Shown: in pieces, positions 3,364-28,752 of the stretch
How positions within the stretch are numbered: the first letter of the stretch is position 1
How the letters are laid out: every line of letters begins with the position of its first letter
NCBI GenBank assembly: GCA_021372575.1
Contig: JAJFUE010000157.1
Coordinates: 1 to 32,351, forward strand
Source of the DNA: a bacterium
GTDB lineage: Bacteria > Sumerlaeota > Sumerlaeia > MVZB01
Length of the DNA: 32,351 nucleotides
Direction: 5' to 3'
Made by a program: the position numbers and the translations under genes
Notes under the pieces: generated by a model
What the model saw: only the letters and a program-made list of their open reading frames with translations
Told to the model about the DNA's origin: nothing
Database searches by the model: none

Positions 3364-3915
3364 ATGACCGATGCCAACGCCGCCACATCCATCGAAATCG
3401 TTCCGGGCAGTCCGAGCCACTGGCCCGCGCTGGCCCGCATCATCCGCCGTGACCTGAGCATGGAGCCCGGCCAGATCAGCTATTACCTGCGCCACTACAT
3501 GCCCGGGACGGCCGTCGCCCTCGTCGATGGCCGGACCGCCGGCTGCTACGTGTTCTACGAAGTTCCGCGGCCGCAGGTCGCCTGGCTCGGCATCATCGTC
3601 GTGGATGGGGCGTTCCAAAGCTGCGGCGTCGGACGCAGGCTCGTCGAGCATCTCGAGCGCCGGGCCGCCGCCGACGGATTCTCGGCGATCGAGATGAGCG
3701 TCGATCCGGACAACGCCGGCGCGCAGCGCTTCTACGAGCGCCACGGCTACAACCGCCTCGACCGCCCCGGCGACCGGCTGACCTACGCCAAGTCGATCAC
3801 CCCCACGGCCCCCCGGCAAACGGGCAATGCGTTGGCCAGGTTCATCCACTGGCTCAAATGCCGGACCATCTGGCGCCTGCGCTACGCGCTCACGATCGGC
3901 AACAACCTCGATTAG
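3364..3915 (+). CDS. GNAT family N-acetyltransferase
   Basis: A 183-residue protein beginning MTDANAATSIEIV. The central acetyl-CoA-binding motif A is visible as VDGAFQSCGVGRRLVEHLE (Q-x-x-G-x-G), followed by an asparagine-containing strand (DPDNAGAQRFYERHGY), as in RimI-like enzymes. A basic C-terminal tail of about 40 residues extends beyond the GNAT domain. I chose the ATG at 3364 because the upstream in-frame ATG at 3337 lies inside the TTTCGTG repeat and has no domain sequence. The acceptor substrate is unknown. The stop codon overlaps the stop codon of the convergent sigma-54 activator gene (shared bases 3913-3914). Confidence 0.85.
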   Translation: MTDANAATSIEIVPGSPSHWPALARIIRRDLSMEPGQISYYLRHYMPGTAVALVDGRTAGCYVFYEVPRPQVAWLGIIVVDGAFQSCGVGRRLVEHLERRAAADGFSAIEMSVDPDNAGAQRFYERHGYNRLDRPGDRLTYAKSITPTAPRQTGNALARFIHWLKCRTIWRLRYALTIGNNLD

Positions 3916-5477
3916 ACCGGCTTTTGCCTGCCGAAGGTTTTGACGCATTCCTTGTCCAGGCGCTGCTTGACCGTGCGGTGATCGACGCCGAGCCGCCGCG
4001 CCGTCTCCTGGTACGACCCGCACTCCGCATACACCAGGCTGCAATATTTTGCCAGCAGCTCCTCGATGGTCAGTTTTCCTTCGGTGACGGCCCTCCCCAA
4101 CGCCTCCCTTGCATTCTCATTCGTCCGATCCTCCGCCACCGCCGGCCGGTACTGCCGCCGGATCATCAGGTTGCGCACGCACTGCTCGAGCTCCCGGAAA
4201 TTGCCCGACCACGCATAATCCTCGGGCAGGTTCGTGCGGATCCAGCCTTCGACCTCGCCGGTGAAATCGGCCAGTTCGTCGGCCGGCACGAGCCGCCGCG
4301 CGATGAACGCCACGAAGGCGCCCAGGTCCTTCGGCGCGTCGTCGAGCTGCTCGCGCAACGTCGGCGTGCGCAACTGGTCGGCGCACAGCCGGTAATACAG
4401 GTCCTCGCGGAACCGCCCCTCCTGCATCATCCGCCCCAGGTCGCGGTGCGTGGCCGTGATGACCTTGCCCTGGAACCGCAGCGGCCGGGTCTCGCCGATG
4501 CGCTGGAACGCGCGCGTCTGCAGGACGCGCAGCAGCTTGACCTGGATCCCCGTGTCCAGTTCCCCGATTTCGTCGAGGAACACCGCGCCGTGCGGCGGAC
4601 AGACTTCGAACCACCCGCGATGGTCCTCCATCGCGCCCGTGAACGCGCCGCGCCGATGGCCGAACAGTTCCGACTCGATCAGCGTCGGCGCCAGCGCGCC
4701 GATGTTGACGGGGTGAAACGCCTCGATGAAATCCTCGCTGAAGGCGCGGGTCTTCGGGTCGAACGGGATGTAGCGCGCCATGCCGATCGCGCGCGCGACC
4801 AGCTCCTTGCCGCTGCCGGTCGGCCCGGTGATGAGGCTCGGGATGTCGCCCATGGCCTCGAATATGCCGCGCCGGTAGCGCCGCATGTTGTGCGTGAAGA
4901 TCGACTCCCACGCCGCCCCGCGCAGCATCGCCATCGGCCGCGACGACCCGATCAGGTAATGGAACAGCAAATGGAACGCGCGCCGGATTTGGAAGAATGC
5001 CGCGAACGTGTGCGCCGCCGGATCGAATCCCGCCGGCGCCAACCCCGCCAGCCTGTCGCCGAACACTCCGCCCAACTCGCGCGCGAACTCCGCGAAAAAA
5101 TCGAGCTGCCGGGGCGCGCGCCCGTCGCCGAGCGCCGCCCGAATGATCTCCGAAAAACGGTGCATGGAACGGTGATACAGCACGAACAGCGCGAGGTCCT
5201 CGTACAGCCGCCAATCCGATTCCGTAATCCGCGCTCCGCGACGCCGTTCGCGATTCAGCGACTCCATGAGCGCCGCGGCCTTCGCGGTCAGCGGCCCCAG
5301 GTTCGGGTTGTTCCGTTCGGCATCGGCGTGGTTGGGCAGGATGGCCGAGGGGGCGCGGTAGGCGTCGCCCAGTGCCTCACGCTCGGCGTCGGCCCGCTCG
5401 GGCCGGAACGGATTGGCATGCGCGACGCGCGAGACCGCCTGCGCGAACCGTTTTTGGGTGGGGGAGAAGAAAGCCAT
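3912..5477 (-). CDS. Sigma-54-dependent transcriptional activator (enhancer-binding protein)
   Basis: A 521-residue bacterial enhancer-binding protein. It hydrolyses ATP to open promoters bound by sigma-54 RNA polymerase. Walker A GPTGSGKE is at about 218-225, the sigma-54 contact loop GAFTGA at 277-282, Walker B GAVFLDEIGEL near 297-307, an arginine-finger region FREDLYYRL near 357, and a Fis-type helix-turn-helix (YQETARRLGVDHRTVKQRL) at about 489-507. The first 205 or so residues contain no REC, GAF or PAS signature that I can see, so the input signal is unknown. The ATG at 5477 has a good upstream AGGAG; an in-frame ATG at 5501 lacks one. It is divergent from the VIT-vWA gene, whose upstream region holds a sigma-54-like promoter, suggesting it regulates that operon. 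Confidence 0.93.
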   Translation of the reverse strand: MAFFSPTQKRFAQAVSRVAHANPFRPERADAEREALGDAYRAPSAILPNHADAERNNPNLGPLTAKAAALMESLNRERRRGARITESDWRLYEDLALFVLYHRSMHRFSEIIRAALGDGRAPRQLDFFAEFARELGGVFGDRLAGLAPAGFDPAAHTFAAFFQIRRAFHLLFHYLIGSSRPMAMLRGAAWESIFTHNMRRYRRGIFEAMGDIPSLITGPTGSGKELVARAIGMARYIPFDPKTRAFSEDFIEAFHPVNIGALAPTLIESELFGHRRGAFTGAMEDHRGWFEVCPPHGAVFLDEIGELDTGIQVKLLRVLQTRAFQRIGETRPLRFQGKVITATHRDLGRMMQEGRFREDLYYRLCADQLRTPTLREQLDDAPKDLGAFVAFIARRLVPADELADFTGEVEGWIRTNLPEDYAWSGNFRELEQCVRNLMIRRQYRPAVAEDRTNENAREALGRAVTEGKLTIEELLAKYCSLVYAECGSYQETARRLGVDHRTVKQRLDKECVKTFGRQKPV

Positions 5478-5505
5478 CGTTTGCTCCTGTACCGAATTCA
5501 AGGAC

Positions 5506-5584
5506 GGAATTCCTGTTCGGAGTTCAAACTTTAGTTTGCCGATTCAAAGAGCAAGCTGAAGCTTGAACTCCTGACAGAAATTCC
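5506..5584. repeat. Full-length inverted dispersed repeat (two 34-bp arms)
   Basis: Left arm 5506-5539 and right arm 5551-5584 are inverted copies (28 of 34 positions identical) separated by 11 nt. Each arm starts GGAATT at its outer edge and carries an internal mini-hairpin: CAAACTTTAGTTTG in the left arm and, read in the same sense, CAAGCTTCAGCTTG in the right arm. The two changes in the stem compensate each other. Single arms occur at 14397-14430, 17047-17080 and 20451-20484. The element sits between the sigma-54 activator gene and the VIT-vWA gene. Confidence 0.85.
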
Positions 5585-5609
5585 ATCCTCGCGATTGAAT
5601 GGGCGGCAC

Positions 5610-5670
5610 GCATGTGCATGCAAAAAATGTCATAGTATATACAAAAAAAGTCAACATGAATCACATCATG
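5610..5670. promoter_or_regulatory. Possible activator-binding dyads in the 5478-5799 intergenic region
   Basis: The 322-bp divergent region between 5477 and 5800 holds the inverted repeat above, this AT-rich segment and a sigma-54-like promoter. Two CATG-centred dyads occur here: GCATGTGCATGC at 5610-5621 and CATGA-N6-TCATG at 5655-5670. They lie roughly 90-150 bp upstream of the predicted start of transcription, a usual distance for enhancer sites of sigma-54 activators. Assignment is by position and symmetry only. Confidence 0.3.
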
Positions 5671-5729
5671 CCAGCCCGTCAAATACGTATATATCTTATC
5701 AATATTGAAGTTAACAGTATCCCGCCCGG

Positions 5730-5746
5730 TTGGCCCGCTCTTCGCT
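5730..5746 (+). promoter_or_regulatory. Candidate sigma-54 (-24/-12) promoter of the VIT-vWA gene
   Basis: TTGGCCCGCTCTTCGCT matches the sigma-54 consensus TTGGCACG-N4-TTGCT with two differences. The invariant GG (5732-5733) and GC (5744-5745) have the exact 10-nt spacing. Transcription would start near 5757, leaving a short leader before the ATG at 5800. The neighbouring divergent gene encodes a sigma-54 activator, which strengthens the call. Confidence 0.5.
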
Positions 5747-5799
5747 CTGGCTTTTCCCGTCGGGCGTCACGCCCGCAATCCTTCGACGGAGAGCAGACC

Positions 5800-7800
5800 A
5801 TGAAACGCATCATCCCCATCCTGATCGCCGGCATCCTCCTCGCCGCGCAGGCTTTGGCCGCGGGCACGCTCACGCCCGTCGGCGCCGATTATGCCCCGAT
5901 CCAGATCATGGACCACCACCTGGACGTGGTCATCAACAACGGCTTTGCGCGCACCGAGGTCACGCAAACGTTCTCGAACCCCAACGACAAGGCCCTCGAG
6001 GCCATTTATTCGTTCCCGCTCCCCAAGAGCGCCTCACTGTCCGAGGTCACGATCACGATCGGCGAAACAAAAATGGACGGCGAGGTCGTCGAGGCCCAAA
6101 AAGCCAAGCAGATCTATGAGGAGGAACGCGATCAGGGCCGCGATGCCGGCCTGACGACCAAGAACGAATACAAGACGTTCGAGTTTCGCGTTGCGCGCAT
6201 TCAGCCCCATGCCGAAATAAAGATTCGCTTCCTTTACTACCAGCCGCTGCCGATCGACACCGGCGTCGGCCGCTACGTGTATCCGCTTCAGGAAGGCGGG
6301 GTTGATGAGCAGGCCCTGGCGTTCTGGACGACGAACGACAAGATCTCGTCGGGCACGTTGTCGGTCGATCTCGAGCTCAAGAGCGCGTGGCCGATCGACA
6401 AGGCGCGCGTTCCCGGCCTCGACCAGGACACGAGCATCACGCGCATCGACGACGGCCACTACAAGGTGCATTTCGAAAAAGCCGGCGCCGCGCTCAACCG
6501 CGATTTCGTCTTCTACTACATGCTCAAGCCGAACCTGCCCGGCCGCGTCGAACTGCTGACGTTCCGCGACAAGGCCGACGCCAACGGCACGTTCATGATG
6601 GTCCTCACGCCGGGCCTGGACCTCAAGCCGCTCACCAACGGCAGCGATTACCTGTTCGTGCTCGACATCTCGGGCAGCATGGACAGCAAACTGGCGACGC
6701 TCGCGCGCGGTGTGAACCAGGCCCTCGGCAAGCTCAGCGCCAGGGATCGCTTCATGATCGTCACGTTCAACGACCGCGCGAAGCAACTCACAAGCGGCTG
6801 GACGGTCGCGTCGCCCGAGAACGTGAAGGCCGCCGCCGACCAGGTTTCGCAAATCAAATCCGGCGGCAGCACCAACATGTACGAAGGCGTCGAGCTCGGT
6901 CTCAAGAGCCTCGATGCCGACCGCGCGACCTGTTTCATCCTCGTCACCGACGGCGTGACCAACACGGGCGTGCTCGAGCCGGCCGCGTTCCACAAGCTCA
7001 TGAAGGCCTACGACGTGCGCTTCTTCGGGTTCCTGCTGGGCAACAGCGGCAACTGGCCGCTCATGCGCACGCTGTGCGACGCCAGCGGCGGCTACCTCAA
7101 GGAAGTCTCCAACGACGACGACATCATCGGCCAGATCCTGCTCGCCAAGGAAAAGATCGTGAACGAGTGCCTGCACGACGCCAGCTTGTCGATCGACGGC
7201 GTCAAGGTCTCGGGCACGACCGACCTGTTCATCAACAAGATCTACTACGGCCAGCAGCTCGTGTTCTTCGGCCGCTACGAGGGCGCGGGCAAGGCGCGCT
7301 TGACGCTCAAGGCCCGCAAGACAGGCCAGGACCTGACCTACTCGACCGAGGTCGATTTCCCGGCCGCCAACCCCGACAACCCCGAGCTCGAGCGCTTGTG
7401 GGCGCTCAACCAGATCGAGCAGGTCCAACTCGCGCAGGACATCGGCAAGATGAACGCCGACGAGGCGAGGGGAGCCATCGTGAACCTCGGCCTGCAATAC
7501 CAGCTCGTGACCGACCACACCTCGATGCTGATCCTCAGCGACCAGAAGTTCCAGGAGAAGGGGATCAATCGCCTGAACCAGCAGATGATTGCGCGCGAGC
7601 GTGACGCGCGCATCCGCCAGGCGCAGGGCGGTGGCCAGATCGTGCAGGCCGACAAGTCGCAGCCGATGTTCAACATGCCGGCCCCGTCGCTTGGCCACGG
7701 CGGCGGCGTGTTGGATCCGCTCACCGTGGCGTTCATGTTGTCTGCCTCCGCAGCCGCGTTGGCCACCCGACGCCGCCGCAACCGCCGCGAAGACCGTTGA
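5800..7800 (+). CDS. VIT and vWA domain protein with GlyGly-CTERM-like sorting tail
   Basis: A 666-residue exported protein. An N-terminal signal peptide (MKRIIPILIAGILLAAQALA) precedes a VIT domain (about 25-155; ALEAIYSFPLPKSASLSEV and EEAxxIYEEE-like region) and a von Willebrand A domain with the MIDAS motif DISGSM near 288-293 and TDGVTNTG. A C-terminal domain of about 170 residues follows. The last residues read GHGGGVLD, a hydrophobic stretch, then RRRRNRRE: glycine-rich, transmembrane, then basic. This is the layout of GlyGly-CTERM signals recognised by rhombosortase, which is what the next gene appears to encode. The ATG at 5800 follows a GGAGAG. In other bacteria similar VIT-vWA proteins are paired with dedicated sortases. 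Surface location and metal-dependent ligand binding are inferred. Confidence 0.9.
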   Translation: MKRIIPILIAGILLAAQALAAGTLTPVGADYAPIQIMDHHLDVVINNGFARTEVTQTFSNPNDKALEAIYSFPLPKSASLSEVTITIGETKMDGEVVEAQKAKQIYEEERDQGRDAGLTTKNEYKTFEFRVARIQPHAEIKIRFLYYQPLPIDTGVGRYVYPLQEGGVDEQALAFWTTNDKISSGTLSVDLELKSAWPIDKARVPGLDQDTSITRIDDGHYKVHFEKAGAALNRDFVFYYMLKPNLPGRVELLTFRDKADANGTFMMVLTPGLDLKPLTNGSDYLFVLDISGSMDSKLATLARGVNQALGKLSARDRFMIVTFNDRAKQLTSGWTVASPENVKAAADQVSQIKSGGSTNMYEGVELGLKSLDADRATCFILVTDGVTNTGVLEPAAFHKLMKAYDVRFFGFLLGNSGNWPLMRTLCDASGGYLKEVSNDDDIIGQILLAKEKIVNECLHDASLSIDGVKVSGTTDLFINKIYYGQQLVFFGRYEGAGKARLTLKARKTGQDLTYSTEVDFPAANPDNPELERLWALNQIEQVQLAQDIGKMNADEARGAIVNLGLQYQLVTDHTSMLILSDQKFQEKGINRLNQQMIARERDARIRQAQGGGQIVQADKSQPMFNMPAPSLGHGGGVLDPLTVAFMLSASAAALATRRRRNRREDR

Positions 7801-7816
7801 ACCCTTCGCGGCACGG

Positions 7817-7855
7817 CCGGGGAATCGGTCCCACCCCCGATTCCCCGGTCTTTTC
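7817..7855 (+). terminator. Intrinsic terminator or attenuator between VIT-vWA gene and rhombosortase
   Basis: A perfect 12-bp stem (CCGGGGAATCGG at 7817-7828 with CCGATTCCCCGG at 7837-7848), an 8-nt loop, then TCTTTTC. It starts 17 bp after the VIT-vWA stop. It would make the protease either a read-through product or the product of its own promoter, giving more target than enzyme. Confidence 0.7.
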
Positions 7856-7900
7856 AATCGTGCTCGCGCTCGTAATCGTCGTTGTAATCGGGAGCCGATC

Positions 7901-8545
7901 ATGAAGAATCAACCGCGCCACATTCCGTATCTAACCCTCGTGATCGCCCTGGCGGCCGTGACCATCCAGTTTTTTCCATCGCTCGCCGGTTTTCTCGCGT
8001 TCGACCGCGCCACGATCCTTTCCGGCCGGCTTTACCCGCTCTGGTCGGGCCACCTGACGCACTGGTCGTGGAATCATCTTGGCTGGGACCTGATCGTTTT
8101 CGTTGCCCTCGCGGGCTATTGCGAGCTTCGCAACCGCCGCCGGCTTCTTTTCCTGTTTGCCGCCGCACCGCCGGCGATTTCGTTGGCGGTCTTCATCGGT
8201 TCGCCGCATCTGGCGGCCTACCGCGGGCTTTCCGGCCTCGACTCGGCCCTGTTCGCTCTGGTGCTTGGCGGTTTCGATCGGTCGAGCCGGAAGATTCATG
8301 CGGAATGCCCGCGGACGATCGTCCTCATCGCCGCCGCGGCGTTTCTCGCGAAGCTCATCTATGAAACCGCCACCGGTGCGACGCTTTTCGCCGCCCCATC
8401 CGCCGAATACCTCGTCGTCCCGTCCGCCCATCTGGCCGGTTTTATTTGCGGGTTATGGGTCTCGACGCTCCCGCCGCGCCGCGTGGCCCGTAGTTCAAGC
8501 TTCAAGATTCCATTCTTCCGAATTCCCCCCCGCCTTGGAGCTTGA
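7901..8545 (+). CDS. rrtA: Rhombosortase-like intramembrane serine protease
   Basis: A 214-residue, multi-helix membrane protein of the rhomboid fold. Motifs in order are WSGHLTHWSWNHLGWD (near 48-62, the rhomboid H-x-x-x-N-like loop/helix region), RGLSGLDSALFALV (about 108-121, GxSG nucleophile Ser111) and SAHLAGFICG (His177, the catalytic dyad partner). Length and motif spacing fit rhombosortase, the protease paired with GlyGly-CTERM tails (established for that family). The gene directly follows a protein bearing such a tail, so this tail is the likely substrate. The start at 7901 has GGAG 6 nt upstream. The last 20 or so residues, after TLPPRR, look unrelated to the fold and may derive from a degraded copy of the 34-bp repeat. 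Confidence 0.82.
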   Translation: MKNQPRHIPYLTLVIALAAVTIQFFPSLAGFLAFDRATILSGRLYPLWSGHLTHWSWNHLGWDLIVFVALAGYCELRNRRRLLFLFAAAPPAISLAVFIGSPHLAAYRGLSGLDSALFALVLGGFDRSSRKIHAECPRTIVLIAAAAFLAKLIYETATGATLFAAPSAEYLVVPSAHLAGFICGLWVSTLPPRRVARSSSFKIPFFRIPPRLGA

Positions 8546-14107: not shown

Positions 14108-14391
14108 ATTACACCTGCGACTACTGTCACCAGCCGATCCCCGAGGGCGTTTACCCATTCACGCTCCGGCTCGAGCTGTTTCCCGCGATCGAGCCTTCGC
14201 TCGAGATCAGCCAGAAGGACCTCGAGATCGACTTCGAGGCCGAAATGAAGCGCCTCATCGAGCAGATGGAGAAGATGACTGAGAGCGAAATGATTGAGCA
14301 GGAGAAGATTCAGTTCGTCTCGCACAAGTTCACGCTCTGCCCCACGTGCCGCAACCGCATCGCCGAACAGCTCGAGCGCCTCGGCAAATAG
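14104..14391 (+). CDS. Small four-cysteine, probably zinc-binding protein
   Basis: A 95-residue protein translationally coupled to the membrane protein before it (ATGA overlap at 14104-14107). Two CxxC pairs, CDYC near residue 5 and CPTC near residue 79, flank an acidic, helical middle (FEAEMKRLIEQMEKMTESE). This is consistent with a zinc ribbon or rubredoxin-like knuckle closed across a coiled-coil insertion. I do not recognise the family. It is probably cytoplasmic, as it has no signal peptide. A role as an accessory factor to its membrane neighbours is an inference from coupling. Confidence 0.75.
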   Translation: MNYTCDYCHQPIPEGVYPFTLRLELFPAIEPSLEISQKDLEIDFEAEMKRLIEQMEKMTESEMIEQEKIQFVSHKFTLCPTCRNRIAEQLERLGK

Positions 14392-14396
14392 GAGTT

Positions 14397-14430
14397 GGAA
14401 TTTCGGCCGGGAGTTCAAACTTTGGTTTGC
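14397..14430 (+). repeat. Single-arm copy of the 34-bp dispersed repeat
   Basis: It starts GGAATTTCGG and ends with the mini-hairpin CAAACTTTGGTTTGC; the stem change A to G leaves a G-T pair. It sits 6 nt after the stop of the four-cysteine gene and before the second membrane paralogue. Confidence 0.8.
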
Positions 14431-14456
14431 TCTGGCGATATGACCTGATCTGTCCA

Positions 14457-15917: not shown

Positions 15918-17045
15918 ATGGCCGCACCGAACGATTCGAATCAGACCCGGATGCCTCCGGTCGAGAAGGAACCGACGGGGATTGAGTGGGCCGCGCCGGA
16001 CGGCGCGCTGCTTCAAATCCGCGAGCTCAAGACTCATTTCATCACGCGCGACATGGTGCGGCGCGCTGTGGATGGCGTGAGCTTCTCGATCGAGCGCGGG
16101 CGCAGCCTCGGACTCGTCGGCGAGAGCGGGTGCGGCAAGTCAGTCACGGCGCTTTCGATCATGCGGCTGGTGCCGGTGCCTCCCGGGCAGATCGTCGGCG
16201 GCGAGATTCTCTACAAGGGCACCAACCTTCTCGATTTGCCCGAAAAGCAGATGCGGCGCGTGCGCGGCGCGGAAATCTCGATGATCTTTCAGGAGCCGAT
16301 GACGTCGCTCAACCCGGTGTTCACGGCCGGATCGCAGGTCGCCGAAGTCTATCGCATTCACCGCAGCATGTCGCGGCGCGAGGCGATGGACCGCGCCGTC
16401 GAGATGCTCAAGCAGGTGCGCATCCCCGACCCCGCGCGCCGCGCCCGCGAATACCCGCACCAGATGAGCGGCGGCATGCGCCAGCGCGTCATGATCGCGA
16501 TGGCTCTGGCGTGCAACCCCGACCTGCTCATCGCCGATGAGCCGACGACCGCGCTCGACGTGACCGTGCAGGCGCAAATATTAAAATTGATGAACGAACT
16601 GCAGGATGAGTTCCGCTCGTCGATCATCATGATCACGCACGACCTCGGCGTCGTGGCCGAGACGTGCGACGACGTCGCGGTGATGTATGCGGGCCAGATC
16701 GTCGAGGAGGCCAAGACGGCGGAGCTCTTCGACCGGCCGTTGATGCCTTACACGCAGGGGCTCATGCGCTCGGTGCCGCGTCTCGAGTGGGTCGCCGAGC
16801 AGCATCAAATCCACCCGATCCCCGGCTCCGTCCCCGACCCCGCGCACTTCCCGACCGGATGCCGCTTCCACCCGCGCTGTCCGTTCGCGACCGACGGCTG
16901 CCTCCAGGCGCAAACGCTCGCCGAAGTCATCCCCGGCCACTCCGTGCGCTGCCACCGCTGGAAGGAAATCCAGGAAGACCCGACCCGCGCCGCCGAAACC
17001 GCCACGATCGCCCGCAAACGCGATATCCACGCATTCGCCGGATAA
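15918..17045 (+). CDS. Oligopeptide/dipeptide-type ABC transporter ATP-binding protein
   Basis: A 375-residue OppD/DppD-type ATPase that would energise import of peptides or similar solutes. It shows Walker A GESGCGKS, the Q-loop [10 protein letters not shown], the signature MSGGMRQR, Walker [13 protein letters not shown] and the H-loop MITHDLG. The C-terminal oligopeptide-type extension carries the conserved [14 protein letters not shown] cysteine cluster. GAGGAG at 15908-15913 sits before tandem ATGs at 15915 and 15918; I chose the second for spacing. No permease, binding-protein or partner ATPase gene is next to it, so it is either an orphan or works with subunits encoded elsewhere. Confidence 0.93.
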
Positions 17046-17046
17046 C

Positions 17047-17080
17047 GGAATTTCGGTCAGGAGTTCAAACTTCAGTTTGC
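17047..17080 (+). repeat. Single-arm copy of the 34-bp dispersed repeat
   Basis: It starts GGAATTTCGG and ends CAAACTTCAGTTTGC. It begins 1 nt after the stop codon of the ABC ATPase gene. Confidence 0.85.
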
Positions 17081-17099
17081 TTTAACACGCAAGATCATT

Positions 17100-19621: not shown

Positions 19622-20479
19622 ATGAACATCGACCGCAACAGCCTGCCGCACCGCGATCAATTCGATCTCGTTTTCAATCGCTTCCGCGGGCTGAAACGCG
19701 TCCTCGTCGCCTATTCCGGCGGCGTCGATTCGTCGCTGCTGCTCAAGATCGGCACGCTCGCGCTCGGCGAAAACTGCATCGGCATCATCGCCAATTCCGC
19801 GATCATGACCCCCGAGGAAATCGAAGCCGCCCGCAAGCAGGCCGCCGAGCATCGCTTCGCCCTGCGCGTGGTTCACTACAGCGAACTCGACATCGAAGAT
19901 TTCGCGTCCAATCCACCGGACCGGTGTTATTACTGCAAGCGCGAATTATTCACTCGTTTCACTGAAATCGCGCGCGAGTTGGGCGCCGCGGCCGTGATTG
20001 AAGGCTCGAACGCCGACGACGCAGCCGACTGGCGGCCGGGCTTCAAGGCCGTCACGGAGCTTTCGGTCGTCTGCCCGCTGCGCGAGGCCGGCCTGCGCAA
20101 GCAGGAAATCCGCGACCTCGCCCGCGCGCTCGGCCTCGCCAGTTGGGACAAGCCGTCGAATCCGTGCCTCTCCTCGCGCATCGCGTATGGCGTCACGATC
20201 GACCGCGAGAAGCTGGCGCAGGTCGCCGACGGCGAGCGTTTCATCCGCGCCAAGGGCTTTCGCCAGGTTCGCGTGCGACACCACGGCGACTCGGCGACGG
20301 TCGAGGTCGGCGCGGACGAATTGCACCGGCTCAACGATCCGGCGCTTCGTCAGGCCGTGATTGATCACCTGCTTTCCCTGGGATTTCCGAAGGTTGAGAT
20401 CGACCCGAACGGTTACCGCATGGGCAGCCTCAATGCCGCGATTCGTGGCCGGAATTCCGGTTCGGAGTTCAAACTTTAG
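19622..20479 (+). CDS. larE: LarE-like ATP-dependent sacrificial sulfur transferase
   Basis: A 285-residue PP-loop ATPase of the LarE family. LarE adenylates a nicotinate dinucleotide and donates sulfur from its own cysteine when making the nickel-pincer cofactor of lactate racemase (family knowledge). Seen here are the PP-loop YSGGVDSSLLLK at 31-42, RCYYCK near 100-105 and WDKPSNPCLSSR with the candidate sacrificial Cys182. larB, larC and larA are not in the window, so a different sulfur acceptor is possible. ATG 19622 follows GGGGGA; earlier in-frame starts lie in the hairpin cluster. The last residues (RNSGSEFKL) and the stop codon are encoded by a copy of the 34-bp repeat. Confidence 0.85.
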   Translation: MNIDRNSLPHRDQFDLVFNRFRGLKRVLVAYSGGVDSSLLLKIGTLALGENCIGIIANSAIMTPEEIEAARKQAAEHRFALRVVHYSELDIEDFASNPPDRCYYCKRELFTRFTEIARELGAAAVIEGSNADDAADWRPGFKAVTELSVVCPLREAGLRKQEIRDLARALGLASWDKPSNPCLSSRIAYGVTIDREKLAQVADGERFIRAKGFRQVRVRHHGDSATVEVGADELHRLNDPALRQAVIDHLLSLGFPKVEIDPNGYRMGSLNAAIRGRNSGSEFKL

Positions 20480-20484
20480 TTTGC
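20451..20484 (+). repeat. Single-arm copy of the 34-bp repeat, overlapping the larE-like stop
   Basis: It starts GGAATTCCGG and ends CAAACTTTAGTTTGC. It is the closest match to the left arm at 5506-5539. It supplies the final nine residues and the TAG stop (20477-20479) of the larE-like gene. Confidence 0.85.
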
Positions 20485-20535
20485 CGAATCGCCGCGCTCA
20501 TTTAAGATTGCTGAGACCTGTGGCGGAGACCGCGC

Positions 20536-25595: not shown

Positions 25596-25618
25596 ACTCA
25601 GGACTCAGGACTCAGGAC
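25596..25618 (-). repeat. ACTCAGG heptamer array (three copies) directly after a minus-strand stop codon
   Basis: Three ACTCAGG units end 1 nt from the stop of the nucleotidyltransferase gene. Read on its coding strand they are CCTGAGT, giving TGA at 25614-25612, 25607-25605 and 25600-25598, one per frame. Confidence 0.9.
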
Positions 25619-25619
25619 T

Positions 25620-26531
25620 TTAATCCCACAGCTTCTTCGGGTAAACCCCGGCCTCGACCAGCTCTTTCAGTTTCTGGGTCACGACCGGCTTGTCGGCGGC
25701 GTAGGTGACACCGAACCACGTCTCGGGCGTCGGCAGGACCTTGACCGTGCCAAGGCCTTCGTGAAGGATGCGATCGACCTCGGTCGTGACGTAGAACTCC
25801 TGCTTGAGCGGGTTCGTCATCGTGGCCATGAACTCGCGGAAATAAACCTCGAGGTGCTTGAACAGCGACGGCTCGAAGCCCCAGATGTTCATCGACGTGA
25901 CTTCGTCGCCGGTCAGTTCGGTCTGCTTGCCGGTCTCGTCGATCGAGACGGCGCCGCGGCCGCGCATTTCAACCTTGGTGTGCTCGACGACGCCCTTCAT
26001 GAAGCCCTCCGGCGTGACATCGCAGATGCCGCGCGCGCACGAACCGTGCGGCGTCAGTGTGTTGCGCAGCACGAACCCCAGCGAGGCGTTCTTGCCGGTG
26101 CCATTGCCGTCGCAGTTGCGCAGAAAGTCGCCGATGATCTGGTAGGATTTGCGGCCGTAGAAATCGTCGGCATTGATGACGGCGAACGGGCCATCGACGA
26201 CATTGCGCGCGATCCAGATCGCGTGGCCCGTGCCCCACGGCTTCTGGCGCCCCTCGTGGATCACCACGCCCTCGGGGACGATTTCCATCTCCTGGAAGGC
26301 GAAATCGACGTCGATCTTGTGCTGGAACCGGCTCGTGATCAGGTCCTTGAAGTCCTGCTCGAACCAGTGCCGGATAATGAACACAACCTTGCCGAAGCCG
26401 GCCTGAATGGCGTCATAGATGGCGTATTCAATGAGATATTCGCCGCTGGGGCCGAACGTGTCCATTTGTTTCAGGCCGCCGTAACGGCTCCCGATTCCAG
26501 CGGCCATGACAAGCAAAGTTGGTTTCATCAT
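25620..26531 (-). CDS. Sugar-phosphate nucleotidyltransferase-like protein
   Basis: A 303-residue NTP-transferase-fold protein. The N-terminal nucleotide-binding signature is LLVMAAGIGSRYGGLKQM, then GPSGEYLIEYAIYDA, with AVINADDFYGR as the metal-binding Asp motif and PWGTGHAIWIA. It resembles the roughly 300-residue nucleotidyltransferases found in many Bacteroidota and candidate phyla, whose substrates are not well established; they are distinct from classical RmlA. It is presumably involved in making an activated sugar or polyol for envelope glycans. ATG 26531 or 26528 are both possible after AGGA. Its promoter is at 26584-26611. Confidence 0.88.
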   Translation of the reverse strand: MMKPTLLVMAAGIGSRYGGLKQMDTFGPSGEYLIEYAIYDAIQAGFGKVVFIIRHWFEQDFKDLITSRFQHKIDVDFAFQEMEIVPEGVVIHEGRQKPWGTGHAIWIARNVVDGPFAVINADDFYGRKSYQIIGDFLRNCDGNGTGKNASLGFVLRNTLTPHGSCARGICDVTPEGFMKGVVEHTKVEMRGRGAVSIDETGKQTELTGDEVTSMNIWGFEPSLFKHLEVYFREFMATMTNPLKQEFYVTTEVDRILHEGLGTVKVLPTPETWFGVTYAADKPVVTQKLKELVEAGVYPKKLWD

Positions 26532-27847: not shown

Positions 27848-27894
27848 CACTCAGCACTCAGGACTCAGGACTTAGCACTCAGGACTCAGGACTC
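27848..27894 (-). repeat. ACTCAGG-type heptamer array (six copies) directly after a minus-strand stop codon
   Basis: Six heptamers abut the TAA at 27897-27895. On the coding strand they give stops exactly every 7 nt, at plus-strand starts 27886, 27879, 27872, 27865, 27858 and 27851. The 27872 unit reads TTA in place of TCA, changing TGA to TAA and so keeping a stop. Confidence 0.9.
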
Positions 27895-28752
27895 TTATTC
27901 CGCCACTTTGCCGCGCGTGACGCGGCCGGGCATGGGGGGCTCGTCCTCGAGCGTGCTCAGCAACTGAACGTTCTCGTTCATCCACTGATTCGTCTCCTGA
28001 AGTGACTTGACGACGCCATCGAGCCGCGTCGAGAGGACCTGCGGGTCCTTGCAGACGCCGATTTCCTCCTGGATGAGCGCGATCTGTTTTTCGATCCGGT
28101 AGAGCTCGGCCTCGGTGACGCGCAGGCCCTCGCTGGCCTTGGCCTGGTTGTCGAGCCGGCGCTGCTGGATCTCCAGCGTTCCGCCCAGCGACTTGGCGAC
28201 CGCCGACTCGGGTTTTTCGCGCGCAAGCTTCTGCTTGATCTTGTCGATTTCGCCCTGAAGGTCTTCCTGAAGGGTTTTATCCAGGTTTTCGCGGATGCGC
28301 TGGCGCGTCAGCAGCAGGTTCAGGAAAATCCACAGCATGTGGTTCAGGTCGCCGGCCTTGAGCTGGTCCATGCCGGCCATCGCCGAGGCCGCGCTTTCGC
28401 CGGCGCGCAGAATTTGCTGGCAGCGGTCGGCGAGTTGCTTGTAGCGAAGTTGCGCGTCGCGCGTGAGCCGTGCCAGGATCTGCCCCTCGCGTTCCTCCCA
28501 CTGCTCCTCGACCTGTCCGGCCATCGTTGCCTGCACCAGCCGCTGAAAACGCGGGTTGCCCGGCAGCCAGACGAGGTAGGCGGTTTCATACGCCAGCCCC
28601 AGAAGCCAGAACGCTGGGTGCCCGAATCCCAGGATCGCGAAGCCTCCAAGAATCAGCTTGTTCAGCGGCATCGCGCCCATCAGCGGCAGCTTGACCGGCC
28701 AGCCGAACGCCGCCTTCACGTAATCCCAGTAGCTGAGCGCCGCCTTCTCCAT
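27895..28752 (-). CDS. Membrane-anchored coiled-coil protein of a transporter operon
   Basis: A 285-residue protein starting MEKAALSYWDYVKAAFGWPV. One or two hydrophobic segments (about 27-62; LNKLILGGFAILGFG and FWLLGLAYETAYLVWL) are followed by about 200 residues of charged helix (LQEDLQGEIDKIKQKLARE, RVTEAELYRIEKQIALIQEE), probably a long cytoplasmic coiled coil. It begins 5 nt after the ATPase stop behind GGAGG, so it is the last gene of the transporter cluster. I do not recognise a named family. A structural or regulatory partner of the ABC transporter is inferred from position. Confidence 0.75.
   Translation of the reverse strand: MEKAALSYWDYVKAAFGWPVKLPLMGAMPLNKLILGGFAILGFGHPAFWLLGLAYETAYLVWLPGNPRFQRLVQATMAGQVEEQWEEREGQILARLTRDAQLRYKQLADRCQQILRAGESAASAMAGMDQLKAGDLNHMLWIFLNLLLTRQRIRENLDKTLQEDLQGEIDKIKQKLAREKPESAVAKSLGGTLEIQQRRLDNQAKASEGLRVTEAELYRIEKQIALIQEEIGVCKDPQVLSTRLDGVVKSLQETNQWMNENVQLLSTLEDEPPMPGRVTRGKVAE

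Follow-up and report, generated by a model that had tools for sequence, protein, structure and literature searches.

A two-gene locus in a Sumerlaeota bacterium most probably (roughly 80%) encodes a dedicated rhombosortase system, in which a secreted VIT-vWA protein would be cut by the enzyme encoded next to it. The locus lies within the window, the whole stretch of 32,351 nucleotides that was analysed. It contains the following features:

3912..5477, minus strand: sigma-54 activator, AAA+ with GAFTGA and a C-terminal helix-turn-helix (PF00158, 2.3e-46)
5731..5746, plus strand: sigma-54 (-24/-12) promoter-like site, TGGCCCGCTCTTCGCT, with GG-N10-GC spacing
5800..7800, plus strand: secreted VIT-vWA protein, predicted rhombosortase substrate, 666 aa (PF08487, PF00092)
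7690..7797, plus strand: C-terminal sorting tail, with Gly-Gly-Gly (7699-7707), a hydrophobic helix and an Arg-rich end
7815..7850, plus strand: terminator-like 14-bp hairpin with TTTTC after it, in the gap that separates the substrate and protease genes (z -5.3)
7901..8545, plus strand: rhombosortase, 214 aa (TIGR03902), with a dyad of Ser111 and His177, Asp63 where GlpG has Asn154, and Ser115 at Ser+4

The tailed, predicted substrate and its neighbouring protease

The substrate contains VIT and VWA domains (Pfam; PF08487, 1e-30, and PF00092, 6e-11), and the MIDAS motif of the vWA domain, DISGS, is intact. Its N terminus, starting from the ATG at 5800, resembles a signal peptide (MKRIIPILIAGILLAAQALAAG). 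At the C terminus (GHGGGVLDPLTVAFMLSASAAALATRRRRNRREDR), GHGGG is followed by a hydrophobic helix and then by RRRRNRREDR, as the original prediction had described for a secreted protein with a Gly-Gly-Gly, helix and arginine tail. This is the tripartite GlyGly-CTERM architecture: a glycine-rich motif without cysteine, a helix, and a basic end, here on a protein with a signal-peptide-like start. Among all window open reading frames of at least 100 aa, five end in a helix plus basic residues; only the VIT-vWA protein has Gly-Gly before the helix, which bears out the claim that no other such tail occurs in the window.

The tail escapes the published model. TIGR03501 gave no match to it at E<=10 in a genome search, and NCBIfam scans of the whole VIT-vWA protein and of the tail alone gave no GlyGly-CTERM match. 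(The authors of TIGR03501 noted that true cases escape their model.) The GlyGly-CTERM label is thus a proposal based on architecture and gene context, and TIGR03501 is shown to overlook tails of this kind. Orthologous VIT-vWA proteins in a second genome of the same class (G008) and in a Prosthecobacter MAG also carry tripartite tails (HTGGGSGAGAFDPITAMIVALLTGAGVTGARSRKQQG and SSGGGGGAGALSPLSAVAIALFAALAFGLTGRSKQKNA, respectively). The tail of the present locus is Ala-rich, and all three share a proline, within DPLT, DPIT or SPLS (pattern GxGx[LF][DS]P[LI][TS]).

Judged by profile, motifs and phylogeny, the 214-aa neighbour is a true rhombosortase, in keeping with the motifs first noted in this gene. 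It matches the Rhomboid family (Pfam PF01694, 2.7e-8) and the NCBIfam rhombosortase model TIGR03902 (96.9 bits, 1.1e-27), the latter over the curated cut-off of 84 bits. The predicted dyad is confirmed by alignment: Ser111 (GLSGLD; in TM4, GLSG) and His177 (SAHLAG; in TM6, AHxxG) fall in the columns where 18 other rhomboids have their invariant Ser and His. Ser111, His177, His54 and His59 are invariant among the 19 aligned rhomboids. A maximum-likelihood tree unites the TIGR03902 members apart from ordinary rhomboids (100/99), and the three VIT-paired enzymes cluster as a subclade (95/91). These three proteases are 33-35% identical; that of G008 scores 116.7 bits against TIGR03902, and that of Prosthecobacter 74.1, below the 84-bit cut-off. 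Structure prediction from a two-sequence alignment gave a mean pLDDT of 43, too low to be informative.

Two positions near the active site deserve attention. In GlpG, Asn154 and His150 contribute to the oxyanion hole. The position of Asn154 is occupied by Asp (Asp63 here) in all three VIT-paired enzymes, versus Asn in all 16 others, and a profile match to GlpG structures backs the register that places Asp63 there. The other position is Ser+4, where a His (SGMLH type) is reported for virtually all rhombosortases. It is Ser115 here, Ser in G008 and Thr in Prosthecobacter. The histidine is typical rather than defining, because two of four other TIGR03902 matches also lack it (Glu, Cys). As read from the alignment, Asp for Asn and Ser or Thr at Ser+4, in all three VIT-paired enzymes, appear to be new details.

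Adjacency of the pair and the number of targets

Substrate and rhombosortase genes lie side by side in each of three lineages, represented by the window, by G008 and by the Prosthecobacter MAG, the sole relative found in the genome_contigs collection. In G008 the rhombosortase gene lies downstream of the VIT-vWA gene, as in the window; in the Prosthecobacter MAG (L004) the VIT-vWA gene (4102-6204) overlaps the rhombosortase gene (6204-6863). Searches of plasmid and viral collections yielded no relatives. Within a 40-genome sample of the phylum, an above-cut-off rhombosortase occurs in two genomes, the window's and G008, and both adjoin a tailed VIT-vWA gene; conversely, the only two tailed VIT-vWA proteins in this sample both stand beside a rhombosortase. 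The three VIT-vWA orthologs share 55-57% full-length identity. About 20 further VIT-vWA matches in the phylum, at about 24-29% identity, all lack the tail. The paired occurrence of the two genes, together with the absence of the tail from these other VIT-vWA proteins, shows that the cassette is sporadic, yet that its two genes travel together.

Several other candidates were set aside. The two VIT-vWA paralogs in the same genome (C55 and C66), which belong to those roughly 20, end without the tail and were rejected as targets. Further TIGR03902 matches in this genome (C12, C139 and C100), and those below the cut-off elsewhere in the phylum, are ordinary rhomboids, flanked by unrelated genes; the ones placed in the tree fall outside the rhombosortase clade. 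Separately, a rhombosortase cut off by a contig end, with the motif GLSGVICS, follows a 299-aa open reading frame ending in GYTGLGSLDISFAIIVLLICGTCWLKRETNA (L048 in G195:C77, minus strand, 3-488 and 492-1388), and is perhaps part of another dedicated pair.

Does the enzyme serve one target or many? The genome, a 214-contig draft that is 95.6% complete, was searched for a second C-terminal Gly-Gly tail with TIGR03501 and with a profile built from the window, G008 and Prosthecobacter tails; within the sensitivity of these models, none was credible. The three-tail profile recovered the VIT tail, a member of its training set, at 1e-16, and its next three matches fall within other proteins, on internal transmembrane segments. 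(Rejected matches, to TIGR03501 on contig C100 (L002 and L003) and to the three-tail profile on C87, C15 and C133, were not GlyGly tails but membrane segments of another kind or improbable short frames.) On these searches the VIT-vWA protein is likely to be the single target, as first proposed, although the point is not proven because TIGR03501 misses even the VIT tail.

The same blindness leaves room for a general enzyme with more divergently tailed targets elsewhere, for which the VIT-vWA protein would merely be the adjacent one: divergent tails could go unseen, and some contigs may be missing from the assembly. This reading is unlikely, however. The profile passes directly from the VIT tail to internal transmembrane segments, genomes that lack a rhombosortase yield similar noise, and adjacency was the mark of single-target genomes in a published survey (PMC3237569). 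Alternatively, the rhomboid may be catalytically impaired or altered, so that the tail chiefly serves the VIT-vWA protein as an inner-membrane anchor. Its activity could indeed be altered, because Asp replaces the oxyanion Asn and Ser the histidine at Ser+4; the consistent Asp among VIT-paired enzymes, and a Ser+4 residue that is neither His nor aromatic, both favour this view. Against it, all three enzymes retain Ser111 and His177 as well as His59, the second oxyanion residue, and each has been kept beside a tailed substrate over the large distances that 33-35% identity implies. An impaired enzyme is therefore quite improbable, and a dedicated, active enzyme and its neighbouring substrate remain the preferred reading.

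Possible regulatory sequences around the pair

The activator open reading frame (3912-5501, minus strand, with an ATG at 5477) is divergent from the VIT-vWA gene, and its PF00158 match and GAFTGA motif agree with its first description as a sigma-54 activator. The promoter-like site at 5731-5746 is correctly oriented, ends 54 bases ahead of the VIT-vWA start codon, and is the sole match in the window, on both strands, to TGGCACG-N4-TTGCW at up to two mismatches. The chance of such a site is about 1% for an intergenic stretch, a value on which simulation and observed background agree. It is suggestive of a sigma-54 site. (A -24/-12-like site at 5604 was dropped, with four mismatches.)

The original prediction went further, placing the pair under sigma-54 control. 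That the pair and the divergent activator form one unit, turned on by a specific signal, is doubtful. In its favour, the best site in the window points toward the VIT-vWA gene, the activator retains GAFTGA, and G008 has a two-mismatch site (TGGCACACGCCTTGTA, L024 3582-3597) that precedes its VIT gene by about 70 bases. But the -12 GC is missing from the G008 site, both activator and sigma-54-like site are absent from the Prosthecobacter locus, and the 1% chance applies to each locus, in a test made post hoc. Moreover, activator orthologs, found in five of 39 other phylum genomes at 43-52% identity, all stand beside unrelated genes; that of G008 is on a different contig from its pair. The activator probably does not belong to the core of the system. 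Because the activator is unlinked, the G008 site incomplete and the Prosthecobacter site absent, sigma-54 control, while possible in this genome, would lie outside the conserved system. What stands of the claim is the adjacent pair, with its probably sole target.

A second candidate regulatory element separates the two genes themselves. The hairpin at 7815-7850 sits in a 100-base intergenic gap and folds far better than shuffled sequences. G008 has a counterpart of unrelated sequence, a perfect 13-bp hairpin without a T run (L024 5709-5743, z -5.6); in Prosthecobacter the genes overlap, leaving no gap. A strong hairpin in two of three loci is a further new detail. Co-transcription of the pair is not assured, because the terminator-like hairpin separates the genes. 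The hairpin may act as a partial terminator or transcript stabiliser that holds substrate above enzyme.

The window also contains repeats. One repeat, roughly 50 bases long (core GGAGTTCAAACTTTAGTTTGC), is interspersed in five copies, mostly between genes (5496-5589, 14387-14436, 17037-17086 and 20441-20490); two inverted copies, 5519-5539 and 5551-5571, lie between the activator and VIT-vWA genes. The repeat looks REP-type, and none would be expected by chance. By eye, the rhombosortase gene ends (about 8490-8545, GTAGTTCAAGCTTCAAGATTCC) in a stretch that resembles this repeat, and the final 15-20 residues of the enzyme (SSSFKIPFFRIPPRLGA) may stem from a degenerate copy; a pattern search at up to three mismatches gave no match there. 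Short tandem-like repeats of CACTCAGGACT occur in intergenic gaps at 27849-27908 and 25596-25634.

Proposed mechanism and relation to known systems

These features suggest a model for the pair. After export through Sec, the VIT-vWA protein would stay anchored in the inner membrane through its C-terminal helix. The adjacent rhombosortase, through Ser111 and His177, would then cleave at the glycines or directly behind them. On the precedent of VesB from Vibrio cholerae, the glycine that now forms the C terminus may be transferred to an ethanolamine-containing lipid, or it may be hydrolysed. Finally, the protein would cross the outer membrane via a type II-like system to reach the cell surface, where its vWA domain could bind an extracellular, metal-dependent ligand. 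The genome does contain a GspD secretin gene above the cut-off. (Many GspD-like secretin matches, one over the cut-off, are spread over contigs C171, C114, C132, C180, C175, C86 and C147 of this genome, G000, and suggest several type II or type IV pilus-like systems.) In the case of VesB, rhombosortase cleavage lays bare the second glycine, a glycerophosphoethanolamine-containing moiety is attached to that residue, and type II secretion then carries the protein to the surface (PMC6219818). In addition, tail and rhombosortase suffice for membrane association (PMC13393428).

The concept of a one-target rhombosortase is not new. Haft and Varghese described adjacent, one-target pairs in 2011, in Opitutus terrae (Verrucomicrobia), Rhodopirellula baltica (Planctomycetes) and Anaeromyxobacter (PMC3237569). 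The present pair resembles theirs in having one rhombosortase and one adjacent target with a signal peptide, C-terminal glycine motif, helix and basic end. (The comparison with Opitutus terrae concerns adjacency and single target, not the domain family of the target.) It differs in its tail, which is Ala-rich, has a conserved proline and escapes TIGR03501, and in its enzyme, with Asp for the oxyanion Asn and Ser or Thr at Ser+4.

The parallel with dedicated sortases, also part of the original prediction, stands but was likewise published in 2011, when GlyGly-CTERM, LPXTG or PEP-CTERM tails were reported on VIT-vWA proteins (PMC3237569). As in the TIGR03784 sortase and TIGR03788 target pairs, a homologous VIT-vWA target has a dedicated neighbouring sorting enzyme; the present protein scores 210 bits against TIGR03788, under its cut-off of 551.65 (NCBIfam). 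There the partners are a sortase and LPXTG, whereas here they are a rhomboid serine protease and a Gly-Gly tail. The Vibrio cholerae rhombosortase, RssP, also acts on a Gly-Gly tail with type II secretion available, but it has six targets, and VesB is a trypsin-like protease. In the rhombotarget lipoprotein pairs (TIGR04179), a dedicated rhombosortase again lies beside its target; that target is a lipoprotein rather than a VIT-vWA protein. The truncated pair in G195 resembles this last type, with a weak tail family assignment (E 0.024).

Might the VIT-paired rhombosortases form a distinct subfamily, with Asp for the oxyanion Asn and proline-sharing tails? The altered active site could favour transfer onto lipid or another acceptor over hydrolysis, and the hairpin could set substrate and enzyme levels unequally. 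The idea is a speculative one with the odds against it, and provisional because it draws on three sequences only.

Together, these results add, with good support, a further rhombosortase system outside the Proteobacteria in which one enzyme serves one target, and hint at a small subfamily of enzymes whose active site is altered. Moreover, such a minimal, single-substrate pair would be a convenient model for the action of rhombosortase on its product.
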